NCBI GenBank assembly: GCA_025453925.1
Contig: JALOPK010000023.1
Coordinates: 1-22,333, forward strand
Direction of reading: 5' to 3'
From: Candidatus Eiseniibacteriota bacterium
GTDB lineage: Bacteria; JAFGKV01
DNA length: 22,333 nt
Shown: piece by piece, positions 4,154-19,877 of the stretch
Numbering within the stretch: the stretch's first letter is position 1
Layout of the letters: every line of letters starts with the position of its first letter
The notes under the pieces: model-generated
Seen by the model: the letters and a program-made list of their open reading frames with translations, nothing else
The model's database searches: none
Told to the model about the DNA's origin: nothing
Made by a program: the position numbers and the translations under genes

Positions 4154-5887
4154 TCACCGGCCGTCTTCCAGGGCCCAGGATGCTCCGCCGACCGGCGGCG
4201 TCGGCACTGACCGGCTCAACCCTGCGCGGGACATCAGCGTGTAGTACCGTTGGAGGCCTGCGGCGGGAAGGGCTCCGGCGTCGAGGTATGAGGTGCCGGC
4301 GGTCGACGACGAGCCCTGAGGCTCGATCCACGGAGCGGATGCCCACCAGACGACGTATTCCAATGCATTGGGAACGGGCGCCCACGTCACCATGAGATCC
4401 TGCGCGGTTTGTGCCGCCACCGTCACCCATGCGGGTCCGGCCAGTGGCGGCGCGTCTCCCGATCGGAAGGCGAAGAACTCGCCGTCGCGCAAGGGGGATT
4501 CTAGGAACTCCTGAAGCCCCACGGTCGGCGCGGCCACGACCGCACAGCTCCATACTAACGCATCGTTTGCCGGGGTATACGAGGGATCAGGCAGTGTCGT
4601 CCATCCCGGTGCGGCCCCACCAAGCTGCGGCAACTCGAATGCTGCCAGCGACGCCGGCCCCATCACCTCCCAGAGGAGGGAGTCGTGATCGGCATCGGAC
4701 CGGTCATCCAGCATGAACGAAGATGTGGCCCAGTCGGCGTGAGGCGTTCCGGCGGGCTGATACCCGCCGAACGAGAACTCGTCACCGACACGGGCCAGCT
4801 CAGGCGGGAGGTAGAAGGCATCGAACGTTCGAGTCGCCCCGGGCGACAGTGCGGTCCAATCGAACGCCCCGCCTCCCCAGGTCGGCTGCGCCGATGTGTC
4901 GGTGTACGCCACGCCCGAGTACGCGGCAAGATCGGCGAACACCCCCGTGGCCGGCAGGTAGGAAATCGACACGGTCGTATCGACCTCCGCACGGCACTGC
5001 ACGCCGTGAAGCGGAACGTAGCGGTCTTTGCGAGGGCTGGCAGTGAGTTCGCCGAGACTGGCGACGTAGCCCTTGCTGCCTCCAGGCAGGCCGCTCACCG
5101 TCACCTGTACGCCATGGACGAAGTTCACGCTGCAGGTGTGATTCACGACGGCATCGCCGGGCACCAGGTAGTTCCGCGAAGCGGTGGCCTTCGTGGCCAC
5201 GACCTGCTGCGGCTCGCCGGCAACGAGGTCATTCACGTCGACACGGTAGCCGAGGCAGATCATATCCACGGTGTCTCCGGTGGGGAAGCGCTGCGTGTAT
5301 GGTTCCTTGAAGAAGTTGACAATGAACAACGCCGTCTGACTCGGGATGTCGATGTTCTCGGGAATCGGAACATCGGTATTCACCGGAAACCCGATGTGCA
5401 TGGTGTCCATGAAGCTGGAGACCAGCATGCCGATCCCGCCGCTCAAGACCTGTTCCGGAGCGATTGCCCCCATCACGATCCCGACGTCAAGGTAGCTGTC
5501 TGTGTTTACTATGGGAAGGCCCCGCACGACGCCGCTGATCATGGCGGTATCCGGCCACTCCTCCCGTGCCGCCGGGTCGCACCAGATCGTCAGCGCCCCC
5601 ACCGGACAGTCCAGCACGGTGAGGCGGGCATATCCAACGGGTGCGACCGTTACGGGGAGCCCCGGGGACAGAGCCGGATCCTGGAGGGTGAGCTGGCCGG
5701 TCCCGTCGGTCAGACCCCAGTTGCCGGCAAAGGGTATGCCGGGCCCGGGGCCGATTTGTGTGTACGTGCCGCCGAGTGGGGCATTGGTCCGGCGATCGAG
5801 CACCGTGACCGTCAACTGATCAGCCAAGGCTGATGCCGCACTTAATGCCAGCCAGCATGCCGCCGGCGCCCAACGCAGTGTGTTCAT
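4154..5887 (-). CDS. secreted protein with carboxypeptidase-regulatory-like N-terminus and C-terminal fibronectin type III domain
   Basis: This is a secreted protein of unknown function, about 577 residues. The N-terminus MNTLRWAPAACWLALSAASA is a clear Sec signal peptide with a likely cut near ALA-DQ. Residues about 23-95 (LTVTVLDRRTNAPLGG..., then a TDGTGQLTL loop) resemble the carboxypeptidase regulatory-like beta fold. A long central part, rich in Gly, Asp and aromatic residues, is unassigned. The C-terminus (from about PPLAGPAWVTVAAQTAQ, then VTWAPVPNALEYVVWW) is a fibronectin type III domain. The start ATG 5887 is set by an AGGAGG at 5894-5899, six bases upstream; the open frame continues upstream but with unrelated Arg-rich sequence inside the neighbouring gene. 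It is the last gene of the long minus-strand operon, 10 nt after the GWxTD gene, converging on the IMPase gene. A structural or adhesive surface role is plausible but not shown. Confidence 0.8.
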   Translation of the reverse strand: MNTLRWAPAACWLALSAASALADQLTVTVLDRRTNAPLGGTYTQIGPGPGIPFAGNWGLTDGTGQLTLQDPALSPGLPVTVAPVGYARLTVLDCPVGALTIWCDPAAREEWPDTAMISGVVRGLPIVNTDSYLDVGIVMGAIAPEQVLSGGIGMLVSSFMDTMHIGFPVNTDVPIPENIDIPSQTALFIVNFFKEPYTQRFPTGDTVDMICLGYRVDVNDLVAGEPQQVVATKATASRNYLVPGDAVVNHTCSVNFVHGVQVTVSGLPGGSKGYVASLGELTASPRKDRYVPLHGVQCRAEVDTTVSISYLPATGVFADLAAYSGVAYTDTSAQPTWGGGAFDWTALSPGATRTFDAFYLPPELARVGDEFSFGGYQPAGTPHADWATSSFMLDDRSDADHDSLLWEVMGPASLAAFELPQLGGAAPGWTTLPDPSYTPANDALVWSCAVVAAPTVGLQEFLESPLRDGEFFAFRSGDAPPLAGPAWVTVAAQTAQDLMVTWAPVPNALEYVVWWASAPWIEPQGSSSTAGTSYLDAGALPAAGLQRYYTLMSRAGLSRSVPTPPVGGASWALEDGR

Positions 5888-5897
5888 TGGGTTCCTC

Positions 5898-7100
5898 CTA
5901 CCAACGGGACAGGTCGCCCTCGACGAGATCATAGCGGCCGAAACCGGTGCGATCCACGAAGACGAACTGACGCTTGAGGGCATGGTAGCTCCAGATCTCA
6001 TAGGGTTTGTTGTTGCGGTCGAACGGATGCCGCTCGATGTCATCGGGCGGCCCGAATCGCACGTAGACCATGCCCATGTCGGTCTTCCATCCCTCCTCGA
6101 ACGCCGAGAAGTGATCATTGGCGAACATGATCCGCGCCTCGTATGTTTCCAGCAGCTCATTACGGGGCGTGGAGGGCACGGGGTCGCGTTGCGCCCAGTA
6201 GTCAAGCCAGAATGCCGTGCGTTCCTCCGCCGGGAGCTTCTTGAACGCCTGCACTTCATCCTTGGTGGCGACGTAGGTCAGGAGCCTGTGGGCATCATCG
6301 TAGTTGCTCACCATTGCCCTGATCGACCAGGGCACGATCACGCGTTTGTCCGCCCAGACGCGGTCGGCCTCACCGATCTCCATCCGTATGTCGTAGGTTC
6401 CGGCCTCAAGTCGGCTGATTCCGACAGAGACCTCCACTTTGGTCAGAGCACCCTCCACTGCGATGCTGTCTTTCTGTTCGATCCTTGCCTTGCCCCGGGA
6501 ATCGGTGATGACGACTCTCACCGGGAGCGTCAAAGCGGAGCTGTCTCCGAATGCGTACAGCTCCGCCCCCAAAGTGAACGCGTCGCAGGGATCGGGCAGG
6601 GTGTCCGAGAGCATCTGGCGTGCTTCCATGCACCCCATCAGCATCAGCGAGCTGAGCCGGAAGCCCGTCCGGCTCGGCGGCGCGATCTCCAGTGTCTGAT
6701 GCCGCGTCCCGCTTCGACGGTTCTCCACGTCCTCAATTGTGACGCTCACCACATAGCTGCCCGGCGGAAGCTTCAGGCGGAGTTCCTCGTTGGCGAACAA
6801 GTTCCGTCTATTCGTCTCGGCGAAGGAAAACACCTGCACCATGCCGTTCAGATGCCCCGTGTGTACCCGTTCCCCCTTGGACGTCGATACCCGGTACGAT
6901 GTCGAGTATCCCGCGGTATAGCCTTCCTCTGCCTTCACAAACAGGAGCTCATCGTAGGTGATAGATAGCCTGATCTTTGCGTATGATCCCTCCGCCGGTT
7001 CCCAGTAGCTGGCGGTTTCCAATTGGAAGGGGAGAGGTGTTGCCTGTCCGTGGGCGCTGGAGCCGAGGAGCAGCAGGACAAGGGCCGTGAGACGGATCAT
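5898..7100 (-). CDS. secreted GWxTD-domain protein
   Basis: The protein is 400 residues with a Sec signal peptide (MIRLTALVLLLLGSSAHGQ). The middle is beta-rich, reminiscent of Ig-like strands (LKLPPGSYVVSVTIEDV; LEAGTYDIRMEIGEA). The C-terminal third carries the GWxTD domain: YWAQRDPVPSTPRNE, then FEEGWKTDMGMVYVRFGPPD with the defining G-W-K-T-D, then PYEIWSYHAL and FVFVDRTGFGRYDLV. GWxTD proteins are known mainly from FCB-group and Acidobacteria genomes and have no established biochemical role. ATG 7100 overlaps the upstream fusion gene's stop as ATGA and has a GGAG about 8 nt upstream. Its place directly after glycan-assembly genes and before a secreted FnIII protein suggests a job at the cell surface (inference). 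Confidence 0.87.
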   Translation of the reverse strand: MIRLTALVLLLLGSSAHGQATPLPFQLETASYWEPAEGSYAKIRLSITYDELLFVKAEEGYTAGYSTSYRVSTSKGERVHTGHLNGMVQVFSFAETNRRNLFANEELRLKLPPGSYVVSVTIEDVENRRSGTRHQTLEIAPPSRTGFRLSSLMLMGCMEARQMLSDTLPDPCDAFTLGAELYAFGDSSALTLPVRVVITDSRGKARIEQKDSIAVEGALTKVEVSVGISRLEAGTYDIRMEIGEADRVWADKRVIVPWSIRAMVSNYDDAHRLLTYVATKDEVQAFKKLPAEERTAFWLDYWAQRDPVPSTPRNELLETYEARIMFANDHFSAFEEGWKTDMGMVYVRFGPPDDIERHPFDRNNKPYEIWSYHALKRQFVFVDRTGFGRYDLVEGDLSRW

Positions 7101-9394
7101 GGGCGATCTCCAGTTGTTGATGTATGCCGCGGCCGCCGGGGCCCGCCGCGGAACGCGGAGGCAATGACCTTAAGCGAGCCGATGAGTATCCTCAGGTCGG
7201 TGCCCAGATTGAGGTTGTTCACGTAGGCAAGATCGTACTTCAGCTTGTCCGACGCCTCTGAATCGTACCGTCCGTTGACCTGGGCCAGTCCGGTGAGGCC
7301 CGGTCTCACCACGAGTCGCCGCTGGTATGTCGGGTCGCTCCGCGTGAACATCTCTACGAACTCGGGCCGCTCCGGCCGAGGGCCGACGAAACTCATCTCG
7401 CCCCGCAGGATGTTGATGAGTTGAGGGATCTCGTCCAGATGCGATGCCCGGAGGAACCCGCCGAACCTGATGATCCGCGGGTCGCTGGGGGTCGCCATCA
7501 CCGGGCCCGATTCCTTCTCGGCATCGTGGATCATGGTTCTGAACTTCAGCAGAACAAAGTTCTTCCCTCGCCGGCCCACCCGGTTCTGCCGGTAGAGAGC
7601 AGGCCCGGGGCTCGACAGCTTCGTGCTGGCGGCGACGAGCGCAAACACCCATGAGAACAGAAGCAGTCCGATGGCACTGCCGACCAGATCACATCCCCGC
7701 TTGACCAGCCGATACCAGCCAGAAAGGGGATCCGTGGGCAGCTTGATCAGCGGCATGCCTGCCAGATTCGTCAGTTCCACCTTGCCGATCAGAATCTCAT
7801 AGAGGCTCGGCACGATTCGTACCTGTGCGCCCCGGCTTTCGCAGCTGGCGATCACATCCATGAGCCGATGCGGCGTCCATGAACCAACCGCGATGATCAT
7901 CTCGGTGAGCGCGAAACGGTGCAGGACGGTGGTGATGCCGTCCGCCGCACCCAGTATCGGCTTCAACGCGGACCCACCTGGCGTGGTCTCGATGAAACCC
8001 ATGAATCGGGAGCCCGCCCCGAGCCGGGTCCTCAGTTCCTGGGCGAGTCTCTGCGCCGCATCGCCCGTGCCGATGATGCCGATTCTGGTGATTCCCTTCT
8101 TGAGCGCCGTCGGCGAAAGAAGCATGGCTCGGACTCCGATGAGCGGCACGGCAGACAGCACCCATCCCAGAGTGAAGACAGAGCGCGGGAAAGGGAAGGT
8201 GAGCGTGGCGAACCGCCGCGACACGAAATTGGCAAGGACGAAGAGGCCCGCCGCCACCGTTAGCGCGCGCAGAGTCTGATACGTCAACTGCGCCGTGTCC
8301 CTGTCCCGCTCGGCCGTGTACAGCCGGGCGCCCCAGAACACCAGAAGGGTCACGCCGGTCAGAACGGGTGATGCACTCAAGTACGCACCGAAGTGCGGCT
8401 GCAGCATGCCGCCCAGTTTCAGATAGAACGCCACCACCTGGGCCATGTTGATGAGTACCGCATCCAGGGTCATGAGCGCCAGCACACGCGCGACGGGAGC
8501 GACACCGTCAAGAATGCCCCTGATGAGCACGCCGAAGGAAACCAACCAGTTGAGCGGCCTCGCGAGTGTGCCGGCGAAGTGCTTGTTGTGGAACACCAGC
8601 ATGGCGCGATGGAACTCGTACTTGCTCCGCAACTTGCTGCGTTTGCTGAGGCCGCCCTTGTAGTGGATGATCTCCGCCCCGGGGTTGTACCACACCTTCC
8701 AGCCTTTCTGCCGGGCGCGAAGGCACCAGTCCAGTTCCTCGCCGTACAGGAAAAACTGCTCATCAAGATCTCCGACTGTACTCAGCAGTTCGGGCCGAAA
8801 CATGAGGAAGGAACCCGAGACGGCGTCGACTTCCATCTCCTTCGAGTCATCCATATAGGTGAGGTTGTACCGGGCAAATCGTCGGCTAGACGGCAGGATC
8901 CTGGCCAGCCCGACCATGCGGTAAAGGGCGACCGACGGGGTGGGTATTGATCGCCGGCAGGCCAGTTGGAGGGTGAGATCCGGGTTCAGGACCCGGCACC
9001 CCGCTATCCCTGCGTCCGGGTGGGTATCCATGAAGGCAGTCATGGCCGAAAGGGCATCGCCGAGCACGCGGGTGTCGGGGTTCATCAGCAGGATGTATCG
9101 CCCCCTGCAGTGGGGAAACGCCTGGTTGTTGGCGCGGGCGAACCCTGCGTTCTCGCGGTTGACGATCACGTGAACCTGAGGGTAGTGCCGACGGACGAAT
9201 GCGACGCTGCCATCGGTGGAGGCATTGTCCACGAAGAGCACCTCCACGCCGATGCCCGCGGTGTGAGCGAACACGGAATCGAGGCATTCCTCCAGGTACT
9301 CGATGCCGTTCCAGTTCACGATGACCACCGACAAGTCGGGTGCAGTGCAATGGTCGCCCTCCGCCGGTGTCGTAACCTGGAAGGCTGAACTCAC
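7097..9394 (-). CDS. GT2 glycosyltransferase fused to polyprenyl glycosylphosphotransferase (monotopic phosphoglycosyl transferase)
   Basis: This is a 765-residue two-enzyme fusion. Residues about 20-275 are a GT2 domain of the rhamnosyltransferase type: LSVVIVNWNGIEYLEECLDS, VDNASTDGS (55-63), the metal-binding NPD at 105-107 and FFLYGEELDWCLRARQKGW near 214-232. Residues about 290-425 hold several hydrophobic membrane segments. Residues 437-550 form a Rossmann-like CoA-binding-type domain (RIGIIGTGDAAQRLAQEL). Residues 560-750 are the sugar-1-phosphate transferase core: KRGCDLVGSAIGLLL, FVLLKFRTM, the catalytic Asp-Glu pair 654-655 in SHLDEIPQLINILRGEMSFV, GPRPERPEF and VRPGLTGLAQVNGR. The second half transfers a sugar-1-phosphate from a nucleotide sugar to undecaprenyl phosphate; the first half could add the next sugar. 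GTG 9394 overlaps the upstream gene as GTGA with a GAGAGG upstream. The frame runs uninterrupted through the junction. Confidence 0.92.
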   Translation of the reverse strand: MSSAFQVTTPAEGDHCTAPDLSVVIVNWNGIEYLEECLDSVFAHTAGIGVEVLFVDNASTDGSVAFVRRHYPQVHVIVNRENAGFARANNQAFPHCRGRYILLMNPDTRVLGDALSAMTAFMDTHPDAGIAGCRVLNPDLTLQLACRRSIPTPSVALYRMVGLARILPSSRRFARYNLTYMDDSKEMEVDAVSGSFLMFRPELLSTVGDLDEQFFLYGEELDWCLRARQKGWKVWYNPGAEIIHYKGGLSKRSKLRSKYEFHRAMLVFHNKHFAGTLARPLNWLVSFGVLIRGILDGVAPVARVLALMTLDAVLINMAQVVAFYLKLGGMLQPHFGAYLSASPVLTGVTLLVFWGARLYTAERDRDTAQLTYQTLRALTVAAGLFVLANFVSRRFATLTFPFPRSVFTLGWVLSAVPLIGVRAMLLSPTALKKGITRIGIIGTGDAAQRLAQELRTRLGAGSRFMGFIETTPGGSALKPILGAADGITTVLHRFALTEMIIAVGSWTPHRLMDVIASCESRGAQVRIVPSLYEILIGKVELTNLAGMPLIKLPTDPLSGWYRLVKRGCDLVGSAIGLLLFSWVFALVAASTKLSSPGPALYRQNRVGRRGKNFVLLKFRTMIHDAEKESGPVMATPSDPRIIRFGGFLRASHLDEIPQLINILRGEMSFVGPRPERPEFVEMFTRSDPTYQRRLVVRPGLTGLAQVNGRYDSEASDKLKYDLAYVNNLNLGTDLRILIGSLKVIASAFRGGPRRPRHTSTTGDRP

Positions 9395-10896
9395 CGCGGG
9401 ACCTCTCGGGACGGGCGAGAGCGGGACCGGAGCCAGCTGAGTAGACGAACCGCGTCATTGGCCATGGCGCGGGGCTCTCCACGCCAGACGGAGGCGCGAG
9501 ACCGCACCCGTTTCATCAGGCGGCCCGGTGATGAATTGTAGCGGTGGAAACGCGCATGCATGGCCGACTCCACGGCAGGGTAGCTGACCCCTTGAGGGAG
9601 GATCATTCCTCGGTCATCGCGGGTGAAGTAATAGTCATGGGGGTTTGTGCGGAAGAACTCCTCCCGGGTCATGGCGGCTTTCACGATCCCCTTTTCCAAA
9701 GCCCGTTGGAACAGCTCTGTTCCGGGGAAGGCCTCGTAGCCGGAGAGGCTCGCGAAATCCGGGCCGAGTTGCCGCATGAACCGGTAGGTCTGGTCGAGAT
9801 CATCCAGGGTTTCCTCCGGCAGTCCCATCATGAAGTAGGCAGTCCAGTGCATGCCCGAATGGCGCAGCCAGTCGGCCGCCCGGAGTATCGCCGCCCGATT
9901 CATGGAACGATCCAGGCGCTCCATCATTCGTTCCGAGCCCGTTTCCACCCCGATCTTGATCCCCGTACACCCCCGGCGCTTCATCTCGACCAGGAGTTCT
10001 CGGTCAATCCGGTCAACCCGCGTCACACAGTCCCAGGTCACACCTCGCCCCGCGAGGAGGCCGCCGAGGGTGACGACCCGCTCACGGTCCAAAGTGAAGA
10101 CATCGTCTTTGAAGGTCACATGGCGGACTCCGTGTCGCGCGACGTCATCGAGTTCATCCTCCAGGGCCTTGAGGGGGACGAACCTGACCCTTCGTCGCCA
10201 GAGACCCTGGCTGAAGCAGTACGCGCATCCATAGGGGCAGCCGCGAGATGTCATCATCAGTCCGAGGTCTTCCCGCGCATATGTGCCCCGAACAAAGCAG
10301 TCGCGGGCCGGGGGAGGCAGGCTGCCCAGATCCGCCGGCGCCACCTCCGTGCAGACCCCCGCGGAGCGGGTGAGCAGGCCGGGCGCAACGCCGGCCATGG
10401 CGAGGAGGACATTGCGATCGCCCACGAGGATGCGGGAGAGAATCGGTTCGCCTTCCCCCACGATCACGCCGTCCACCTCTGGTGCGTTCTCCAGAATCTC
10501 TTGCGGGCGAGCCATGGCATGGGCTCCGCCGACAACGACGGGCACGCGGGGCAGGATTTCACGCACCACGGAGGCCGTCCTCATCACGGTCGCCATCTTG
10601 GCGGTCAGCGCCGAGATCCCCACCCACTCGGGCCGGATGGACTCCAGAATTCGGGCGAGCTCTTCCCACACAGGACCCTCAGCGCTTGCCACCGCCGCCA
10701 GGTAGGCCGGGTAGCGACGCGGGAGCGCCTGATAGTCCACGCCTCGAGCCTGAGTGTCGTGGTCGGCGTCGTAGATCAGCGGTTCGTGCCCCAATGCCCG
10801 TGCGCAGGCAGCCAACGCCGCCAGACCGTAGGGGAAGTAGCGGGTGTAGTAGCCCATGAACCGGTAGAACGGTGGGTCTATGAGCAGGAGTCGCAT
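9391..10896 (-). CDS. B12-binding-domain radical SAM protein
   Basis: The protein has 501 residues. Residues 1-150 form a cobalamin-binding-type Rossmann domain (MRLLLIDPPFYRFMG; SIRPEWVGISALT; VPVVVGGAHA near 119-127; VDGVIVGEGE near 141-150), of the class that lacks the DxHxxG loop. The radical SAM core follows with Cys220-x3-Cys224-x2-Cys227 in SRGCPYGCAYC, then VRHVTFKDDVFTLDRERV and GIKIGVETGSERMME, which are typical of this superfamily. The C-terminal region is an accessory helical part. Members catalyse difficult methylations, ring contractions or epimerisations using SAM with or without cobalamin; the substrate here is not deducible. It overlaps the preceding GT2 gene by 19 nt and the following GT2-PGT gene by 4 nt (GTGA). 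That strongly suggests it modifies a sugar, a lipid carrier or a glycan in this pathway (inference). Confidence 0.9.
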   Translation of the reverse strand: MRLLLIDPPFYRFMGYYTRYFPYGLAALAACARALGHEPLIYDADHDTQARGVDYQALPRRYPAYLAAVASAEGPVWEELARILESIRPEWVGISALTAKMATVMRTASVVREILPRVPVVVGGAHAMARPQEILENAPEVDGVIVGEGEPILSRILVGDRNVLLAMAGVAPGLLTRSAGVCTEVAPADLGSLPPPARDCFVRGTYAREDLGLMMTSRGCPYGCAYCFSQGLWRRRVRFVPLKALEDELDDVARHGVRHVTFKDDVFTLDRERVVTLGGLLAGRGVTWDCVTRVDRIDRELLVEMKRRGCTGIKIGVETGSERMMERLDRSMNRAAILRAADWLRHSGMHWTAYFMMGLPEETLDDLDQTYRFMRQLGPDFASLSGYEAFPGTELFQRALEKGIVKAAMTREEFFRTNPHDYYFTRDDRGMILPQGVSYPAVESAMHARFHRYNSSPGRLMKRVRSRASVWRGEPRAMANDAVRLLSWLRSRSRPSREVPR

Positions 10897-11792
10897 GCCA
10901 TCCTCGTGGAGAGGGAAGCCCTCAGCACCGCGCCGTGTTCAGCCATGCCGCCGCGGGCGATTGCCAGCAGGGAGTAGCCGGCCAGCAGCGCACGCGTCCC
11001 GGTGCACTGGCCGGGGGTCCCGTGGCGCTGGAAGTACCGGAGAGCGCTCAGCGACCGGTGACGATGGGCCAGGGCGGAACGGCTGGGGGCGCTTCCCCCG
11101 ATCACGTGTTCCGCCGTCGCGGCGGGAGTGAATCCCACGGTCCACCCGGCATCCCAAAGGCGCCGGCAGAGGTCTTTCTCCTCATAGTACAGGAAGAACC
11201 CCGGGTCGAACGGTCCCGCGTCCGCCAACGCACGACGTCGCAGAACAAAGCATGCGCCGCTTACCATCTCGACCTCCCGCTCCACCGTATGAGGGTCCAG
11301 CTGGCCGAACGCCCTGGACAGGGGAGTTTTCGACAGGATACGTTTGATCCCCGGAGGCACCCTGCCGGCGATGCCGAGCAGATGCCCCGACAATTGCACC
11401 AGAGTGGGAAGGCGATAGCTACTGGTCTGCAGGCCCCCGTCCGGGTTGCGCAGGCGCGGCCCGGCCATGCCCATCCGGGGGTTCCTCCGGAGAAACTCGA
11501 CCAACAAATCCGCTGTTCCCGGCTGGACTGTCGTGTCGGGATTCACGATCAAGACAAACTCGTTTGCTGCCTGAGAAAGGGCGCGGTTCACGCCCCTCGA
11601 GAAGCCGAGGTTGAGGCCGGGTTCGTCCCAGACCACCTGTTCCCGGAAGCCTTCTCGCAGGACGGCCGGCACGGGATCGGGGCCATGATTCACCACGACG
11701 GTCTTCCTGACCTGGGGAACGAGGGCGCCTAAACAGAGGTGCAGCATGCCGAACGGACCATAATGGACCACGATGCCCGCGATGTCGTTCAC
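10878..11792 (-). CDS. glycosyltransferase family 2 (rhamnosyltransferase-like)
   Basis: This cytoplasmic GT-A fold glycosyltransferase probably adds one sugar to a lipid-linked glycan. The 304-residue protein has a divergent N-terminal strand (DIAGIVVHYG), a LNLGFSRGVNRAL nucleotide-site helix, the metal-binding NPD at 84-86 (VLIVNPDTTV), GPRLRNPDGGLQ near 111-121, a long MVSGACFVLRRRAL acceptor segment and FFLYYEEKDLCRRLWDAGW, the usual acidic catalytic region of WbbL-like enzymes. I chose GTG 11792 because it overlaps the stop of the upstream gene as GTGA; the frame is open to 11966 but that part lies inside the DUF218 gene and has no family likeness. The donor sugar is unknown. The C-terminal tail is a hydrophobic helix (ALLAGYSLLAIARGG) that may bring it to the membrane. 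Confidence 0.88.
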   Translation of the reverse strand: MNDIAGIVVHYGPFGMLHLCLGALVPQVRKTVVVNHGPDPVPAVLREGFREQVVWDEPGLNLGFSRGVNRALSQAANEFVLIVNPDTTVQPGTADLLVEFLRRNPRMGMAGPRLRNPDGGLQTSSYRLPTLVQLSGHLLGIAGRVPPGIKRILSKTPLSRAFGQLDPHTVEREVEMVSGACFVLRRRALADAGPFDPGFFLYYEEKDLCRRLWDAGWTVGFTPAATAEHVIGGSAPSRSALAHRHRSLSALRYFQRHGTPGQCTGTRALLAGYSLLAIARGGMAEHGAVLRASLSTRMACDSCS

Positions 11793-12433
11793 GTCGCTAC
11801 GCTCCGGTAGTGGAGGCGATAGAATGCGGTCTTGACCGTCTCGGTGAACACGGTGATGAGCCCCTTCTCGGTGAGCCACCATCGGGCGGAATCCACTTCG
11901 GGTACCGGGACCGTGGCGAGGTGCACCACGATCCCCTTGGGGACGCATACCCGCCGGAGGATCCACCGCGCCCGCGAAGCATGGCAGCTCGATGTCACGA
12001 AGAGAACACGCTCAAGCCCGTGCGCGACGGCCCATGACGATGCTGCCACGGCCTCATCGTACGTGCTCTCGACCGTTCCGGGGAGCACTACTACCGCGGA
12101 GTCGGGGATGCCCAGCCGATTCAGAATGCGGCACGCGATCTCCTCCTCGCGGGGGAGAAGGCCAAGCTCGCAGGCGGCATTGGTTCCCGGAGTCCCCATG
12201 GCGACAAGCGGCGCGCGACCCTCTCGCGCGAGCATGGCCGCATAGGTGGCCCGAGGCACCACGTCGCCCAGCAGAATGAACACTGCGTCCGCCCGCCGCG
12301 GGAGCTCCTCCCAATGCTGCAGCCTATTCCGCCAGCTGTGCAGAAGAGGATCCGGATTGGCCAGCAGGACGGCGAGCAGCGCCAAGGCACACAGGATCAG
12401 CGCCGCAATCCGCGAGGGTTTCTTCGTGCTCAC
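11789..12433 (-). CDS. DUF218 (YdcF/SanA/ElyC-like) membrane-anchored protein
   Basis: This is a 214-residue protein with one N-terminal membrane segment (RIAALILCALALLAVLLAN, about 8-26) followed by a DUF218 domain. The family landmarks are visible: ADAVFILLGDVVPRATYAAML (about 49-68), EEEIACRILNRLGIP then VVVLPGTVESTYDEA (about 97-128) and ERVLFVTSSCHASRARWILRR (about 141-161), where the usual T-S-x-x-H-x-x-R-A pattern is kept. DUF218 proteins such as ElyC and SanA are linked to envelope integrity and undecaprenyl-carrier or peptidoglycan metabolism, with no firm enzymatic assignment. GTG 12433 overlaps the upstream GT2 stop as GTGA; upstream in-frame sequence lies inside that GT2. It sits between two GT2 genes, supporting a role at the membrane in glycan or lipid-carrier handling (inference). 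Confidence 0.85.
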   Translation of the reverse strand: MSTKKPSRIAALILCALALLAVLLANPDPLLHSWRNRLQHWEELPRRADAVFILLGDVVPRATYAAMLAREGRAPLVAMGTPGTNAACELGLLPREEEIACRILNRLGIPDSAVVVLPGTVESTYDEAVAASSWAVAHGLERVLFVTSSCHASRARWILRRVCVPKGIVVHLATVPVPEVDSARWWLTEKGLITVFTETVKTAFYRLHYRSVAT

Positions 12434-13386
12434 GGGGGCGCCGTTTTGGATCGCGTCCAGGGTCTCTGCGCCACGAAGAACCACGGGGCAACGCGGCGGC
12501 TGAATCCACTGAGCGGCCTCCCGCGGCGGAGCCTCGACGGGGGGCCGGCGAATGCCGCCCACTTCGCCTTGAGCACAGTTCTTCCCCGGCCGGCAACGGC
12601 GTGGCGGATCACGCTGGCTCCCTGGTATCCCACGTGGAGAACGCCAAAGACTGGCCACCACCACCACGGAGTGTTCGACCAGAAGGCCCACTCGAGGTTG
12701 CGTTGCGCCAACGCCAGCAGCAGCGTCGGGGATCGGCGCAGGGTCTGTCCTCCGAGGTGAACCACCACGGCCCGGGGCTGCACGACGCAGATGAACCCCG
12801 CGTTGCGCACCCGGAAGGCGAGGTCAATGTCCTCGTCCTGGGCGAAGAACGACCGGTCGAAGCCTCCGGCGGCGATGAGCGCCTCCCGCCGGAACACTGC
12901 GGCGCCGCCGCTGGCGCCGAAGACCTCGAACGGTTCCCGAGGGAGGTCATCGGGGCGCGCGCCCTCCATATGCCGACGCCCCACGCCCCAGATGCTCATT
13001 GCGAGGCCGGCGGATTCGACGGTTCCTCCCGGCACGAGGATCACCGATGCGCACGCGCCGACCGCCTTCTCCTCGAACACTGCCGCTGATGCCTCCAGCC
13101 AGGCCTGATGCGGCCTGGCGTCGTTGTTCAGGATGGCGACCAATTCGCTCGCGGTGGATTCCACTCCTTCCTGAACGGCCCCCGCGAAGCCCTGGTTGAC
13201 TTCCAGGCGGATGAGCCGCACGGAAGGCCAGGTCGCCCTGAGCCAGTCTTCGGTCCCGTCGGACGATCCGTTGTCAACCACGATGACTTCCTCTGGCGCC
13301 AGGGTCTGGGCCGCCAGCGCCCGAAGGCAATCTTGCAGCAGCGGCCTGCCGTCCCACGATGGGATGATGACGTCGATCCCGCTCAT
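12430..13386 (-). CDS. glycosyltransferase family 2
   Basis: This is a 318-residue GT-A fold glycosyltransferase. Visible motifs are DVIIPSWDGRPLLQDCLRAL at the N-terminus, VIVVDNGSSDGTEDWL (34-49), NQGFAGAVQEGVE (64-76), the DXD-equivalent NND at 87-89 (VAILNNDARP), FGASGGAAVFRREAL (156-170) and FFAQDEDIDLAFRVRNAGF (180-198) with the catalytic acidic pair near 185-186. The C-terminal 100 residues are rich in Trp and basic residues (SNTPWWWWPVFGV), compatible with membrane association. ATG 13386 overlaps the rlmN stop as ATGA. It probably adds a sugar to a polyprenyl-linked or surface glycan; donor and acceptor cannot be inferred. It is the first glycosyltransferase gene of the operon after rlmN. 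Confidence 0.88.
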   Translation of the reverse strand: MSGIDVIIPSWDGRPLLQDCLRALAAQTLAPEEVIVVDNGSSDGTEDWLRATWPSVRLIRLEVNQGFAGAVQEGVESTASELVAILNNDARPHQAWLEASAAVFEEKAVGACASVILVPGGTVESAGLAMSIWGVGRRHMEGARPDDLPREPFEVFGASGGAAVFRREALIAAGGFDRSFFAQDEDIDLAFRVRNAGFICVVQPRAVVVHLGGQTLRRSPTLLLALAQRNLEWAFWSNTPWWWWPVFGVLHVGYQGASVIRHAVAGRGRTVLKAKWAAFAGPPSRLRRGRPLSGFSRRVAPWFFVAQRPWTRSKTAPP

Positions 13387-14486
13387 GGGCCGGCTACGAC
13401 TCTGGCCTCCGGGCCGCCTGCGAGCTGACCGCACGCCGCGGCGATGTCGCCACCCAGGCTCTGTCGCATCGTGACCGTGGGTGAGGCCGGCAGCAGGATC
13501 GAGAGGAACGTTCGAATGCGGTCGCCGGAGGGCGCACGGAACATCGTGCCCTCGGTCTCATTGTATACGATCAGGTTGATCTTGGAGGGCAGGCGTGAAG
13601 CCAACGCAGACAACGCCCGGGCACAGGCGGCGGTATCGTTGACACCGCCCAGGAGCACGTACTCCAAGGTGACGATGGTCCTGGTCGCCTCCGCGTAGTG
13701 CCGTAATGCGGGGATGACATCTGCCAGGGGAGGAGCATTCGGCATCAGAGACGTGCGCAACCCCTCCCATGGGGCGTTGAGGCTGAACGCGAGCCGAACC
13801 CTGAGCCCCGCTTCGGCCAGGGCCCTGATGCCGGCGGGGATTCCGCAGGTGGATACGGTGATGCGTCGCGCCGCGTAGCCGAACCCGTGTTCCCACGTCA
13901 GCACACGAATCGTCTCGATCACGGGGCGGGGCTCGAGGAGCGGCTCGCCCATCCCCATGAAGACGATGTGTGTGGGCCTCGTTCGTCCTGCCCCCGCCGG
14001 AGCGGGGCGAACAACGGCCATGAACTGCTCGATCAGCTCCCCTATCGTCAGCGTTCGACCGGGTCCCAGCCGCCCCGTCGCGCAGAAAGCACAGGCCATG
14101 GGACATCCGGTCTGCGAGGACAGGCACACGGTCGTCCTCCCGGCGGCCGGGAGGTGCACTGCCTCGACGGCGGCCCCTGATGCGAACCTGATCAGGAGTT
14201 TGCACGATCCGTCCGCTGAGGACGTGGCCGCGGCGATAGTGCCCCGCCCGATGAACCATGACGCGGCTATCCGGCTCCTCAGGGACGCGGGGAGGTTCGA
14301 CATCTCCGCCACGGTCGAGGCATCTTCGCGGTACACCCACCGGCCGATCTGGGCGGCTCGGAAGGGCTGTAGTGCGAACCGAGCGACCATGTCCGCCAAC
14401 CCCGAACACCCCAGGTTCTTCAGATCAGAGGGTTCGCCCGCCTTGGGCTCATCCACGGCCACCCCGCCTTGGTCTCGACCACGCAC
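13383..14486 (-). CDS. rlmN: 23S rRNA (adenine2503-C2)-methyltransferase, radical SAM
   Basis: RlmN methylates C2 of A2503 in 23S rRNA (and A37 in some tRNAs) using radical SAM chemistry through a methyl-cysteine intermediate. The N-terminal FRAAQIGRWVYREDA helix, SNLPASLR, the cluster motif QTGCPMACAFCATG (Cys128, Cys132, Cys135), MGMGEPLLE, ITVSTCGIPAGIR and KINLIVYNETEG are all present. The C-terminal catalytic Cys352 lies in DIAAACGQL. The usually conserved Arg two residues before the Asp-Ile motif is replaced by Leu343 (MRQSLGGDI rather than RxxRGxDI). Starts considered were GTG 14525, 14498, 14486 and 14462; 14486 has a GGAG six bases upstream and gives 367 residues. The position ahead of glycosyltransferases with an ATGA overlap looks like operon sharing rather than shared function. 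Confidence 0.9.
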   Translation of the reverse strand: MRGRDQGGVAVDEPKAGEPSDLKNLGCSGLADMVARFALQPFRAAQIGRWVYREDASTVAEMSNLPASLRSRIAASWFIGRGTIAAATSSADGSCKLLIRFASGAAVEAVHLPAAGRTTVCLSSQTGCPMACAFCATGRLGPGRTLTIGELIEQFMAVVRPAPAGAGRTRPTHIVFMGMGEPLLEPRPVIETIRVLTWEHGFGYAARRITVSTCGIPAGIRALAEAGLRVRLAFSLNAPWEGLRTSLMPNAPPLADVIPALRHYAEATRTIVTLEYVLLGGVNDTAACARALSALASRLPSKINLIVYNETEGTMFRAPSGDRIRTFLSILLPASPTVTMRQSLGGDIAAACGQLAGGPEARVVAGP

Positions 14487-14624: not shown

Positions 14625-17048
14625 TCACTCGGTGGAGAGGACGATGGCGCTGAGCGGCGGCATGGTGAGGCGTACCGTCCCGGCGTACTGATTCGCGGTG
14701 GCCTCTCCCCAGCGTCGCACCAGCCGTGAACCGGGTAATCCCGCCAAGTCCACCGTACGCTCCCACGAATCGGAGCCGAGGTTGAAGGCCACGATCGCGA
14801 GCTGATCGAAATCAACACGGGCAATGACCAGTGCCTGTTCCTCCACGTGGAGCACCACGCAATCACCGTAGGACAGTGCGGGGATGCGTCGCCTGAGCTG
14901 CCCAAGATCGCGCATTTCGGCGAGATGGTTGCGCTCGATGTCACTCAACTCGTTGCCGAAGCGCATCATCCGGCGATTGTCCGGATCGGCCGCGCCCGCC
15001 ATGCCGATTTCGTCCCCGTAGTAGAGCACCGGTATGCCGGGTACCGACAGGTTGAACAGAAAGAACAGCTGCAGCCTCCGGTTCGCGGCCGGGTCTCGAG
15101 CCGTGAGCGAGTGCGTCCAGCCCCACTGACGTTCATTGGCACCCGGCGGGATGTCCTGCTGCGACAGGGTGATGAAGCGCACCTGATCGTGGCTGCCCGT
15201 GACGTTGGCCATCAGGTGGAGAGGCCCGAACGCATCCAACGATTGCTCCAGTTCGCGGGTGACCTGCTTGAATGATGCTGCTTCCTTTCCGCAGAACATC
15301 GGCCTGGACGCGTAGTAGAGATTGAAGTCGAACTGCCCGTCCATTTCCGCGGGAACGGCATAGCTTCCGACGAGTTTTCTGGAACCGAAGGTCTCTCCGA
15401 TTTGCAGCACCTGGCGGCCGGGGGCGGCGGCGCGCAGCCCCGCCGTGAGCGACCGCCAGAACTCGTGGGGGATATGCTTGGTGGCGTCATGCCGGAAGCC
15501 GTCCAGGCGAAACGTCTCCAGCCACCACGCGGCGGATGCCACCACCGAGTCGACCCCGGGGGCTCCACCACGGAGGTCCAGCGTCGGGAGGAAGGGATCA
15601 AACCACGTGGTGAGGCGGTGCGCATCCCAGTGGCGAAGATTGAGCGTGCCGTCGGGCAGCACGAGGTCCTGCATCCACTCGGGGTGGGAGGCAACCCAGG
15701 GGTGATCGATATGTACGTGATGCGGCACAAGGTCGAGAATCACCCGGAACCCGCGCTGATGGGCCGACGTCACCAGGTTCTGCATCAGTGCAACGGTGCC
15801 GAACCTCGGCTCTATATCCCGATCTCGGACCGGCCAGTAGCCGTGGTACCCACTGTAGGCGAGGGCGGGTGGAAAGGCCGCCTCCGGTATCGGGAGCTGT
15901 CGCTGGCCGAAGTACGGGTCGATCATTGTGGCGAGGAGGGAGTCGAGCTCCGGAACCGACAACGCCCGCATCCGGTCGGTGTACTCCAGTGGTGAAATGG
16001 CGATGCGATCGGGGCCGGGGTAGAGCGGGCCCAGCCAGAGGGTCGTCACTCCCAGTGAGTCGAAGTAGCCCTCCTCCAGAGTCCGCCGTATCCCTTCCAG
16101 GTCCCCGCCTTGATAGTTGACCATGGTGTGCACGCCGGGATGGCACACGGGCCGGTCGTTCAGGGTGTCGCCATTGCGGAAGCGATCAGGAAACAGGCTG
16201 TAGATGAAGCTGCGGTAGATGCCGTCGTCGGCGCCTTCCCGGCCGCGGGGGATGCCGCGGTCAAGCCAGGTCCAGCTCTCGGGCAGCGGCCGCCCTTCCG
16301 CGTCGGCGCCCAGGACCCGCAGGAATGAACCATCCCCCTCCTCGACACCAACGGCCCCCGACTCGTAGGTGAATGGTGCCTCATGACCATCCATCAGCAC
16401 AATGATGGTGGACGGGGGAGGCGCTTGGGGAGGGTAGTACACGAAGGTCATCCTTCCGTCCCGGCAGCTTGACTTCACGAATCTGCAGGACGACAGGCCG
16501 CTGCTGATGTGAAGCACCGAGTTGTGGCTGCCGAGCCCGTCATCGACGCGGTCACTGTTACCGGGATCGGGCATCCACGCGCCATCCACCACGAACTTGT
16601 AGAGGTAGGTGCCCGGCGGGAGCTGGAGGGTCGTGCCGAATCGTCCGTCGTTCCTCAACGCCATCGGTGTGGCCGTTCCATTCCACCCGTTGAAGGAGCC
16701 CGCCAGGAATGCGGCCACCGGCGCGTCACCCGGTGGGTCATAGGAGAACGAAACCTCGGTCAACGGTCTGCGTTCCAGCGGAATCACCAGTGTCTCTCCA
16801 TCCGGAGAGGCGAGATGCACCATGCCGATTCCTCCTCCCGGCTCCTCGGCGGCGACCACCAGGAGATCATCGAGGACGCTGGCGTCGATGCCCGGCGTGC
16901 ATGACGTGACGACCCATGGCCTGGACAGATACCACGAGGAGAGATCCATCGTGTCCGGCAGCATGCCCACCAGATGCAGCGTCGGCGGAAACGGGGCGGA
17001 CGCGTAGGCCGACGCCGCGACTACGCCGGCGAGGACTAGTCGCCGCAT
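14625..17048 (-). CDS. secreted alpha-glycosidase (GH13, alpha-amylase family) with CBM48-type module
   Basis: This 807-residue protein has a Sec signal peptide (MRRLVLAGVVAASAYASA). Residues about 105-182 form an AMPK-beta/CBM48-like glycogen-binding module (AFLAGSFNGWNGTATPM; PPGTYLYKFVVDGAWM). From about residue 275 the GH13 barrel begins (YRSFIYSLFPDRFRNGD, as in cyclomaltodextrinase/neopullulanase types). Catalytic regions are visible. Region I is DLVPHHVHIDHP (Asp439; the common Asn is His443), region II is GFRHDATKH (Arg519, nucleophile Asp521, His525), region III is QIGETFGS (acid/base Glu552) and region IV is GSHDQ (His620, Asp621). A beta-sheet C-terminal domain ends the protein. 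It should cleave alpha-glucans in the periplasm or outside the cell. ATG 17048 overlaps the pckA stop by 13 nt. A 138-nt gap to rlmN follows, without a convincing terminator. Confidence 0.9.
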   Translation of the reverse strand: MRRLVLAGVVAASAYASAPFPPTLHLVGMLPDTMDLSSWYLSRPWVVTSCTPGIDASVLDDLLVVAAEEPGGGIGMVHLASPDGETLVIPLERRPLTEVSFSYDPPGDAPVAAFLAGSFNGWNGTATPMALRNDGRFGTTLQLPPGTYLYKFVVDGAWMPDPGNSDRVDDGLGSHNSVLHISSGLSSCRFVKSSCRDGRMTFVYYPPQAPPPSTIIVLMDGHEAPFTYESGAVGVEEGDGSFLRVLGADAEGRPLPESWTWLDRGIPRGREGADDGIYRSFIYSLFPDRFRNGDTLNDRPVCHPGVHTMVNYQGGDLEGIRRTLEEGYFDSLGVTTLWLGPLYPGPDRIAISPLEYTDRMRALSVPELDSLLATMIDPYFGQRQLPIPEAAFPPALAYSGYHGYWPVRDRDIEPRFGTVALMQNLVTSAHQRGFRVILDLVPHHVHIDHPWVASHPEWMQDLVLPDGTLNLRHWDAHRLTTWFDPFLPTLDLRGGAPGVDSVVASAAWWLETFRLDGFRHDATKHIPHEFWRSLTAGLRAAAPGRQVLQIGETFGSRKLVGSYAVPAEMDGQFDFNLYYASRPMFCGKEAASFKQVTRELEQSLDAFGPLHLMANVTGSHDQVRFITLSQQDIPPGANERQWGWTHSLTARDPAANRRLQLFFLFNLSVPGIPVLYYGDEIGMAGAADPDNRRMMRFGNELSDIERNHLAEMRDLGQLRRRIPALSYGDCVVLHVEEQALVIARVDFDQLAIVAFNLGSDSWERTVDLAGLPGSRLVRRWGEATANQYAGTVRLTMPPLSAIVLSTE

Positions 17049-18848: not shown

Positions 18849-18877
18849 ATCTTACATTGCCGCGTGCGTAGCGGCAA
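18849..18877 (-). promoter_or_regulatory. candidate sigma-70-type promoter for pckA and the downstream operon
   Basis: On the minus strand a -35-like TTGCCG (18872-18877) is followed by exactly 17 bp and a -10-like TAAGAT (18849-18854). Each matches the consensus at four of six positions. It lies 66-95 bases upstream of the pckA start, in the divergent intergenic region, leaving room for a short leader. The -35 box lies inside an inverted repeat, so a regulator binding there could control it. This is pattern matching only; no transcript data are available. Confidence 0.35.
18857..18877. repeat. perfect 7-7-7 inverted repeat between divergent genes (candidate operator)
   Basis: TTGCCGC (18857-18863) and GCGGCAA (18871-18877) are perfect reverse complements separated by GTGCGTA. 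The repeat lies 23 bases upstream of the UroD/MtaA-like gene start and overlaps the spacer and -35 of the putative pckA promoter. Its size and symmetry suit a dimeric repressor site. It would also form a 7-bp hairpin just before the Shine-Dalgarno of the plus-strand gene. No regulator gene is adjacent, so its identity is open. Confidence 0.45.
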
Positions 18878-18899
18878 GACTCCGCAGGAGGATTCGCCG

Positions 18900-19877
18900 G
18901 TGCGCGCGTTCCCTGACTTAGTGCGCCCGGGACGGGTGGGTCTCCTCTTCGGAGCGGATCACGCCGCTCACGTCGCGGGAGTTCCTTCCGCTCGTGCGCT
19001 GAGGGATCCGGCCATAATGGCCCGCTCGATTCTCCATGCCCGGTCGCTCTACGACCACGACCTGGTGATTGTGCACAGCGACGCCCTCCTCGGCCTCGAG
19101 GCGCTCGGTGGAAGAATGGCGTTTCCCGAGCACGGCCCCCCGATGCTGGTCAGCCGGCCGGTTTCCCCGCCCCCCCGGCCGCTCGATCCGTGGCGCGATG
19201 GACGGATGCCACTGCTGCTGGAGGCCGCCTGCAGGGTGCGCCGCGGCGTGAGCGCGGAGACGGCCGTTGCCGTTTCACTGACCGGACCGTTCACCCTGGC
19301 GGCGGCGGTCGGAGGGGAATCGAGCTTCTTGGCCCTCCTCCCGCGGCTCGGCGCCCGGGAGCGGGACCTCATGGATTGCGCCGTGGAGAGCACGATCCGC
19401 GCAGTGAACGCAGCAAGGGGGGAAGGGCTGGGGGTTATGGTAGCGGAACCGCTGGTGAGCCTGCTCGGTCCGTCAGTGTTCGTCGACCTCATCGTCCCTT
19501 CGCTTCGCCGCGTACTTGCCGGCCCGGACGCCATCGTGCACATTTGCGGCGATTCCTCACATCTCCTCCCCCATCTGTCTTCCCTCACGGCAGGCGCCTT
19601 CAGTCTGGATCAGGTTGATCTGGTCGAGGCATCGCGGGTGGTCCGCGGACATGCGGTTGTCATGGGCGGGCTGGCGCCGGAGATGGTTCGCACGGGCACA
19701 CCGGAGTGCATTCAACGCGCCGCGGCAGACCTTCTGTGGAGGGTGGGGGATTGTTTCATTCCCTGCACCGGGTGTGACCTCGTCTGGGATACCCCCGTTG
19801 CCAACGTTCAGGCGTTCATGCGGGGTGCCCGGTCTGCCCCGGCGCAACTACCAGCCGGCGAGGTTCGGCCGGCCTGA
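18900..19877 (+). CDS. UroD/MtaA-like protein (corrinoid-type methyltransferase family)
   Basis: This 325-residue protein has the uroporphyrinogen decarboxylase/MtaA barrel fold: ALRDPAIMARSILHARSLYDHD, VSLTGPFTLAAAVGG (126-138), MVAEPLVSLLGP (180-191), VHICGDSSHLLP (213-224), DQVDLVEASRVV, VVMGGLAP and IPCTGCDLVWDTPVANVQAFM (287-307). The His214-x-Cys216 pair and Cys292 in the GC-x-x-x-x-x-TP segment match the zinc site of MtaA/CmuA-type methylcobalamin:thiol methyltransferases and are not features of HemE. It may therefore move a methyl group between a corrinoid protein and a thiol rather than make coproporphyrinogen; no corrinoid protein partner is encoded nearby. GTG 18900 is chosen because AGGAGG (18886-18891) lies eight bases upstream; ATG or GTG codons further up are less well placed. 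Confidence 0.78.
   Translation: MRAFPDLVRPGRVGLLFGADHAAHVAGVPSARALRDPAIMARSILHARSLYDHDLVIVHSDALLGLEALGGRMAFPEHGPPMLVSRPVSPPPRPLDPWRDGRMPLLLEAACRVRRGVSAETAVAVSLTGPFTLAAAVGGESSFLALLPRLGARERDLMDCAVESTIRAVNAARGEGLGVMVAEPLVSLLGPSVFVDLIVPSLRRVLAGPDAIVHICGDSSHLLPHLSSLTAGAFSLDQVDLVEASRVVRGHAVVMGGLAPEMVRTGTPECIQRAAADLLWRVGDCFIPCTGCDLVWDTPVANVQAFMRGARSAPAQLPAGEVRPA

Follow-up and report, generated by a model that had tools for sequence, protein, structure and literature searches.

A conserved Fermentibacterota gene block joins a B12-type radical SAM enzyme to predicted surface-glycan genes

We identified in Fermentibacterota a conserved block of eight genes in which a B12-type radical SAM enzyme is encoded directly before a predicted glycan-priming PGT. 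The reading that we favour, with a probability of roughly 60%, is of an operon that builds a surface glycan on a polyprenol carrier, with an early sugar altered by the radical SAM enzyme and with two secreted proteins as lineage-specific accessories. The partnership of a cobalamin-type radical SAM enzyme with a glycan-priming PGT appears to be undescribed; in the literature searched, no paper brought together cobalamin-dependent radical SAM enzymes, glycosyltransferases and polysaccharides.

Gene order is conserved in Fermentibacterota

The window analysed here is a whole contig of 22,333 nucleotides (C272) from a draft genome (G000; 3.9 Mb in 502 contigs). It carries a run of eight genes, all on the minus strand, which encode, in order, RlmN, a family-2 glycosyltransferase (GT2a), a DUF218 protein, a second family-2 glycosyltransferase (GT2b), a B12-type radical SAM enzyme, a GT2–PGT fusion, a GWxTD protein and a secreted FnIII-like protein. 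Every gene that a preliminary description of this DNA had listed was found, on the minus strand and in the family named; RlmN, which lies inside the interval described, was missing from that list. The best Pfam matches of GT2a (12430..13386) and GT2b (10878..11792) were PF00535 (4e-25) and PF13641 (3e-12), respectively. RlmN, a dual-specificity RNA methyltransferase (13383..14475), matched TIGR00048 at 283 bits against a cut-off of 290, and its start codon is uncertain. We considered and rejected a role for it as a specialised pathway enzyme, because RlmN is the best fit and this is the only copy in the genome; it is a housekeeping gene that stands first in a tight run.

Read from the sequence, the junctions from GT2a to the FnIII-like gene are overlaps of 4, 4, 19, 4 and 4 nt followed by a 10-nt gap, as had been claimed, and RlmN joins GT2a by a further 4-nt overlap (ATGA). 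No terminator-like sites were found between the block genes; the sole minus-strand match falls within the PGT gene, and there are fewer terminator-like matches than the mean of shuffled sequences. Short overlaps also occur outside the block, such as the 13 nt shared by the PEPCK and GH13 genes. Because similar overlaps occur elsewhere in the genome, overlaps alone are little proof of an operon, and it is the conserved gene order that proves the block.

We compared three Fermentibacterota genomes of two genera: that of the window, one of the same genus (G001, locus on contig C232) and one of the same family (G002, contig C168), the latter two being Candidatus Fermentibacteria drafts. The full order of eight genes was kept in both relatives, with protein identities to the window of 49–78% overall (59–78% in G001 and 49–65% in G002; for GT2a 61% and 56%, for GT2b 69% and 56%). 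Upstream, a GH13 gene is kept in G001 and another GT2 takes its place in G002, whose contig stops just past the FnIII gene. Since the order was kept in G002 while this flank changed, the block has a boundary of its own, at least on the upstream side. Judged by gene order in these three genomes, the earlier suggestion of a coherent operon is supported.

The upstream GH13 gene (14625-17048, minus strand) encodes a secreted amylase-like protein with a glycogen-binding-type domain; it adjoins the block in G000 and G001 and is absent there in G002. Farther along the window is a URO-D family gene (18864-19877, plus strand), whose best NCBIfam matches, below cut-off, were among the MtaA/CmuA methylcobamide methyltransferases; a gene for a LysM lytic transglycosylase-like protein follows shortly downstream.

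The radical SAM family is tied to glycan genes across phyla

The radical SAM protein (9391..10896, minus strand) combines a CxxxCxxC core at residue 220 with an N-terminal B12-binding-like domain, both above the Pfam cut-off (PF04055, 3e-22; PF02310, 4e-18), although a B12-binding match alone is not proof of cobalamin use. The three cysteines are invariant in 20 relatives, and the 66 invariant columns of the 20 aligned rows are spread to the C terminus. No named NCBIfam family, ApyD, BchE, AprD4 and TIGR04295 included, matched above its curated cut-off: the best score was 151 bits (cut-off 750), with AprD4 at 117 (500) and TIGR04295 at 69 (400), and the weak matches include BchE, HpnR and HpnJ. 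The closest solved chain by sequence was AprD4 (1e-40). The G000 genome holds a rich set of B12-type radical SAM proteins, with at least 25 matching places.

With the radical SAM sequences of the three Fermentibacterota genomes as queries, a search of named genomes, in which neighbouring genes played no part, recovered 38 further relatives, mostly full length and 35–43% identical. Their hosts include Brocadiales (Brocadia, Kuenenia, Jettenia and Loosdrechtia), other planctomycetes such as Phycisphaerae, Nitrospirota, Elusimicrobiota and a Desulfobacteraceae bin. In a tree, one branch with modest support (75/50) split 28 relatives from 18 other B12 radical SAM proteins. Among the 35 relatives with at least 0.9 kb of downstream sequence, 23 were followed on the same strand by a Bac_transf PGT no more than 2.2 kb away, and 5 more had a downstream GT2 that was 41–54% identical to the GT2 domain of the fusion. 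At control loci encoding other B12 radical SAM proteins, a PGT lay within 1.5 kb in 0 of 27 and 1 of 23 cases (1/50 together). Because most of the positive loci are from Brocadiales, they represent about six independent lineages rather than 23. One locus (L152) carries three separate genes, for radical SAM, GT2 and PGT, arranged as in the fusion, with 51% and 50% identity to its two domains, and two others (L134 and L143) have a radical SAM gene, a short GT2-like gene and then a PGT.

As an independent check, we ran a profile of the 20 radical SAM rows against 386 genomes and obtained four new near-relatives scoring at least 547 bits, the next match being at 448. All four lie in glycan clusters. 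One (L193) is preceded by two GT4 genes, a Wzy_C-like gene and a GT9; another (L194) is preceded by a UDP-glucose dehydrogenase gene and followed by heparinase-like and GT4 genes; the third (L195) is followed by a GT4 and an epimerase gene; and the fourth (L196) has a GT4 before it and a PGT directly after it. As only the last of these adjoins a PGT, direct PGT adjacency is frequent and not a rule; an adjacent PGT was also not found at L136, L137, L151 and L159. What holds more steadily across the family is a place in a glycan cluster, and the tie of this family to PGT or other glycan genes across phyla is supported.

These neighbourhoods also bear on whether the enzyme acts on a lipid, such as the polyprenyl carrier, rather than on a sugar. 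Its gene often adjoins that of a carrier-using enzyme, and BchE, HpnR and HpnJ, among its weak matches, are non-sugar families. However, all four independent near-relatives stand among glycosyltransferase and sugar-nucleotide genes, three of them with no adjacent PGT, and the best solved match, AprD4, is a sugar enzyme; we consider a lipid substrate improbable. AprD4 is a radical SAM diol dehydratase that acts on paromamine and deoxygenates the aminosugar, and GenK and GenD1 are cobalamin radical SAM C-methylases of aminosugars (PMC5461906). Because the closest chain and these two methylases act on aminosugars, a sugar would be the likeliest substrate, and methylation or deoxygenation the likeliest outcome.

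A candidate for methylated anammox glycans

In Brocadiales, the radical SAM–PGT pair stands alone between unrelated genes. Such stand-alone pairs, with no other glycan genes around, were seen in anammox bacteria and related planctomycetes (L126–L162; for example, L139:10001-12880 and L162:10001-12892). A search for GT2 orthologues elsewhere in the anammox genomes gave only general GT2 matches of 34–40%, which are uninformative. The S-layer of Kuenenia stuttgartiensis, a member of the Brocadiales, carries a short O-glycan that includes methylated HexNAc, also at the reducing end, as well as a 174-Da unit that was left unidentified (PMC5088730).

On a rival explanation, the block would make a glycan O-linked to protein instead of a free polysaccharide, with the secreted proteins or an S-layer as acceptors: pairs that lack other glycan genes are typical of the same order in which this short glycan, methylated at its reducing end, was described. 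Against this, the authors of that study favour O-methylation (PMC5088730), and we saw the pair in K. hertensis, whereas the glycan was described from K. stuttgartiensis. We regard a protein O-glycan as possible but on balance unlikely. For the same two reasons, the link between the pair and the Kuenenia glycan is a test and not a result. The pair offers a specific candidate for the so far unexplained methylation of S-layer glycans in anammox bacteria. In our view rather doubtful is the general proposal that, through the conserved radical SAM–PGT partnership, the early (reducing-end) sugars of surface glycans become C-modified in several phyla, with the methylated glycans of anammox S-layers among them.

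The priming fusion, the DUF218 protein and export genes

The fusion (7097..9394, minus strand) consists of a GT2 domain (about residues 20–250; PF00535, 7e-25) and a WbaP-like membrane part with CoA_binding_3 (PF13727, 6e-6) and Bac_transf (residues 565–744; PF02397, 3e-59) domains. The Asp-Glu dyad of Bac_transf (LDEIPQ near residue 654) and its GPRP motif (at 671) are intact, and among solved structures the protein matched WbaP chains in the PDB at 4e-34. PGT fusions with two functions are already recognised as a class (PMC10942596). We found GT2–PGT fusions to be common in other phyla, where, by names given on inspection, they lie beside Dpm1-like GT2 (14 of 20 loci), RmlD-like (9) and AccA (9) genes; no window-type radical SAM protein was found beside them in the 20 loci read. 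In these fusions (L103–L122), the PGT part is often divergent, with 20–30% identity over about 150 residues. An attempt to trace co-inheritance of the radical SAM enzyme and the PGT by trees was set aside, as trees of full-length and domain-only PGT sequences place the window's PGT differently, with weak support.

The DUF218 protein (11789..12432, minus strand; PF02698, 9e-15) has an ElyC/SanA-type domain and, by inspection, an N-terminal membrane anchor. In E. coli, the DUF218 protein ElyC regulates a surface glycan, the phosphoglyceride-linked form of enterobacterial common antigen (PMC8609368).

No flippase, polymerase or other export gene was found within the block, in agreement with the preliminary description. 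A reading of this absence as a special trait was rejected: elsewhere in G000 there are matches to Polysacc_synt_3 (8 places), Wzy_C (7) and Poly_export (1), and since Wzx-, Wzy- and Wza-like genes are thus encoded elsewhere in the genome, their absence from the block is not odd.

The secreted proteins are lineage-specific neighbours

The GWxTD protein (5898..7100, minus strand; TIGR04514, 2e-34, 118 bits against a cut-off of 28) has a signal peptide, two beta-sandwich domains (about residues 20–258) and a C-terminal GWxTD domain (about 260–400). Its AlphaFold2 model (pLDDT 91) shows the two sandwiches and a mixed C-terminal domain. Beta sandwiches are a common fold, and Foldseek matched only this part (20–258) of the model, with many unrelated chains tied; the top match was RbmA (2e-8, but with a TM score of 0.22). 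The FnIII-like protein (4154..5887, minus strand) has a signal peptide by inspection and an FnIII-like C terminus. Its gene starts at 5887, whereas the longer mechanical open reading frame, up to 6259, reaches into the GWxTD gene. The protein had no Pfam or NCBIfam match, its orthologues in the two relatives are 70% and 49% identical, and its AlphaFold2 model, built from three sequences, was unusable (pLDDT 31). Full-length relatives were seen only in Fermentibacterota, in a search that covered the three genomes of that phylum.

GWxTD genes were present in 94 of 386 sampled genomes. We read about 60 GWxTD loci elsewhere, mostly of 8–20 kb each, by tblastn with the block's proteins. None had a PGT in the same operon as GWxTD, and none had DUF218 or RlmN as partners; a single PGT lay within about 6 kb, on the opposite strand (L089), and weak radical SAM matches occurred at three loci, in two of them to RimO-like genes. 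On these neighbourhoods we rejected the idea that GWxTD marks glycan systems in general. The preliminary description had proposed that the combination could point to the role of GWxTD proteins; because no locus elsewhere shares an operon with a PGT, the block reveals no general role, and outside Fermentibacterota the GWxTD homologues are scattered. A literature search found no paper naming GWxTD or PF20094, and the window's operon does not settle the question of GWxTD function.

By names given on inspection, the recurrent GWxTD neighbours were ABC ATPases (12 loci), MreB (10), RimO-like (10), FtsY (9), LD-carboxypeptidase (8) and PurH (7) genes. In other phyla, GWxTD lies beside RimO-like, FtsY, LD-carboxypeptidase, PurH/PurN and MreB/MreC/PBP2 genes at L038, L044, L049, L054, L064, L086 and others, a hint that its context there is the cell envelope or cell shape, and many GWxTD genes of these phyla are tandem pairs. 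In two of the three Fermentibacterota genomes, about 4.7 kb separates a second GWxTD gene (L035:9106-14987 on G000:C134; L056 on G001:C162) from the sole Poly_export (Wza-like) gene of the genome, and this GWxTD gene has aminotransferase, Ddl and Era genes as neighbours.

The GWxTD and FnIII-like genes thus appear to belong to the block only in Fermentibacterota. There they may be mere passengers of a genuine glycan core, co-transcribed with it, as RlmN is, without acting on the glycan. Housekeeping RlmN is coupled just as tightly at the other end, overlaps occur outside the block, and GWxTD genes elsewhere show no linkage to PGT or GT2 genes. However, both secreted genes stay at the block's end in three of three genomes, at 49–70% identity, despite the changed upstream flank. 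We give the passenger explanation a substantial chance, somewhat short of even.

Proposed pathway

From the observations above, we infer substrates, chemistry and roles for the DUF218 protein and the two secreted proteins. On the favoured reading, of a polyprenol-linked surface glycan with a modified early sugar, the C-terminal PGT domain of the fusion is predicted to transfer a sugar-1-phosphate to undecaprenyl phosphate, its GT2 domain would probably add a second sugar, and GT2a and GT2b would extend the chain. The radical SAM enzyme would act on an early sugar, either as a nucleotide sugar or once lipid-linked, and most likely C-methylate or deoxygenate it at an unactivated carbon. By analogy with ElyC and enterobacterial common antigen, the DUF218 protein may tune the pathway, and flipping and export would rely on proteins of the Wzx/Wzy/Wza type whose genes lie elsewhere. 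The GWxTD and FnIII-like proteins would be secreted accessories added in Fermentibacterota, perhaps as glycan-binding proteins or glycan acceptors. The earlier proposal of a lipid-linked glycan, probably started by the PGT, is supported.

Comparison with known systems

The block differs from a Wzx/Wzy-dependent polysaccharide locus in lacking a flippase and a polymerase, matches to which lie elsewhere in the genome. Its PGT resembles the large monotopic PGTs of the WbaP and WcaJ type (TIGR03025) in its membrane bundle, CoA_binding_3 domain and Bac_transf core with LDE and GPRP, but sits behind an N-terminal GT2 domain; compared with the GT2–PGT fusions of other phyla, it is found beside different genes. 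Like ElyC and SanA, the DUF218 protein carries a membrane-anchored DUF218 domain, although ElyC has two membrane helices and the window's protein, by inspection, has one N-terminal anchor and is encoded inside a glycan operon. The GWxTD protein shares with other members (TIGR04514, PF20094) a signal peptide, a beta-sandwich part and a C-terminal GWxTD domain well above cut-off, but its place in a glycan operon was not seen in the approximately 60 other loci. Its sandwich match to RbmA-like biofilm scaffold proteins, which have a tandem FnIII fold and bind exopolysaccharide, is not singled out from the tied unrelated chains. Finally, AprD4 and the class B cobalamin radical SAM C-methylases (GenK, GenD1 and TokK) have a domain plan similar to that of the radical SAM enzyme. 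Those enzymes belong to antibiotic pathways, the setting in which C-modification of sugars by radical SAM enzymes is most familiar, whereas the window's family scores far below every NCBIfam cut-off and is tied to surface-glycan genes; such a family would extend this chemistry to the bacterial surface.
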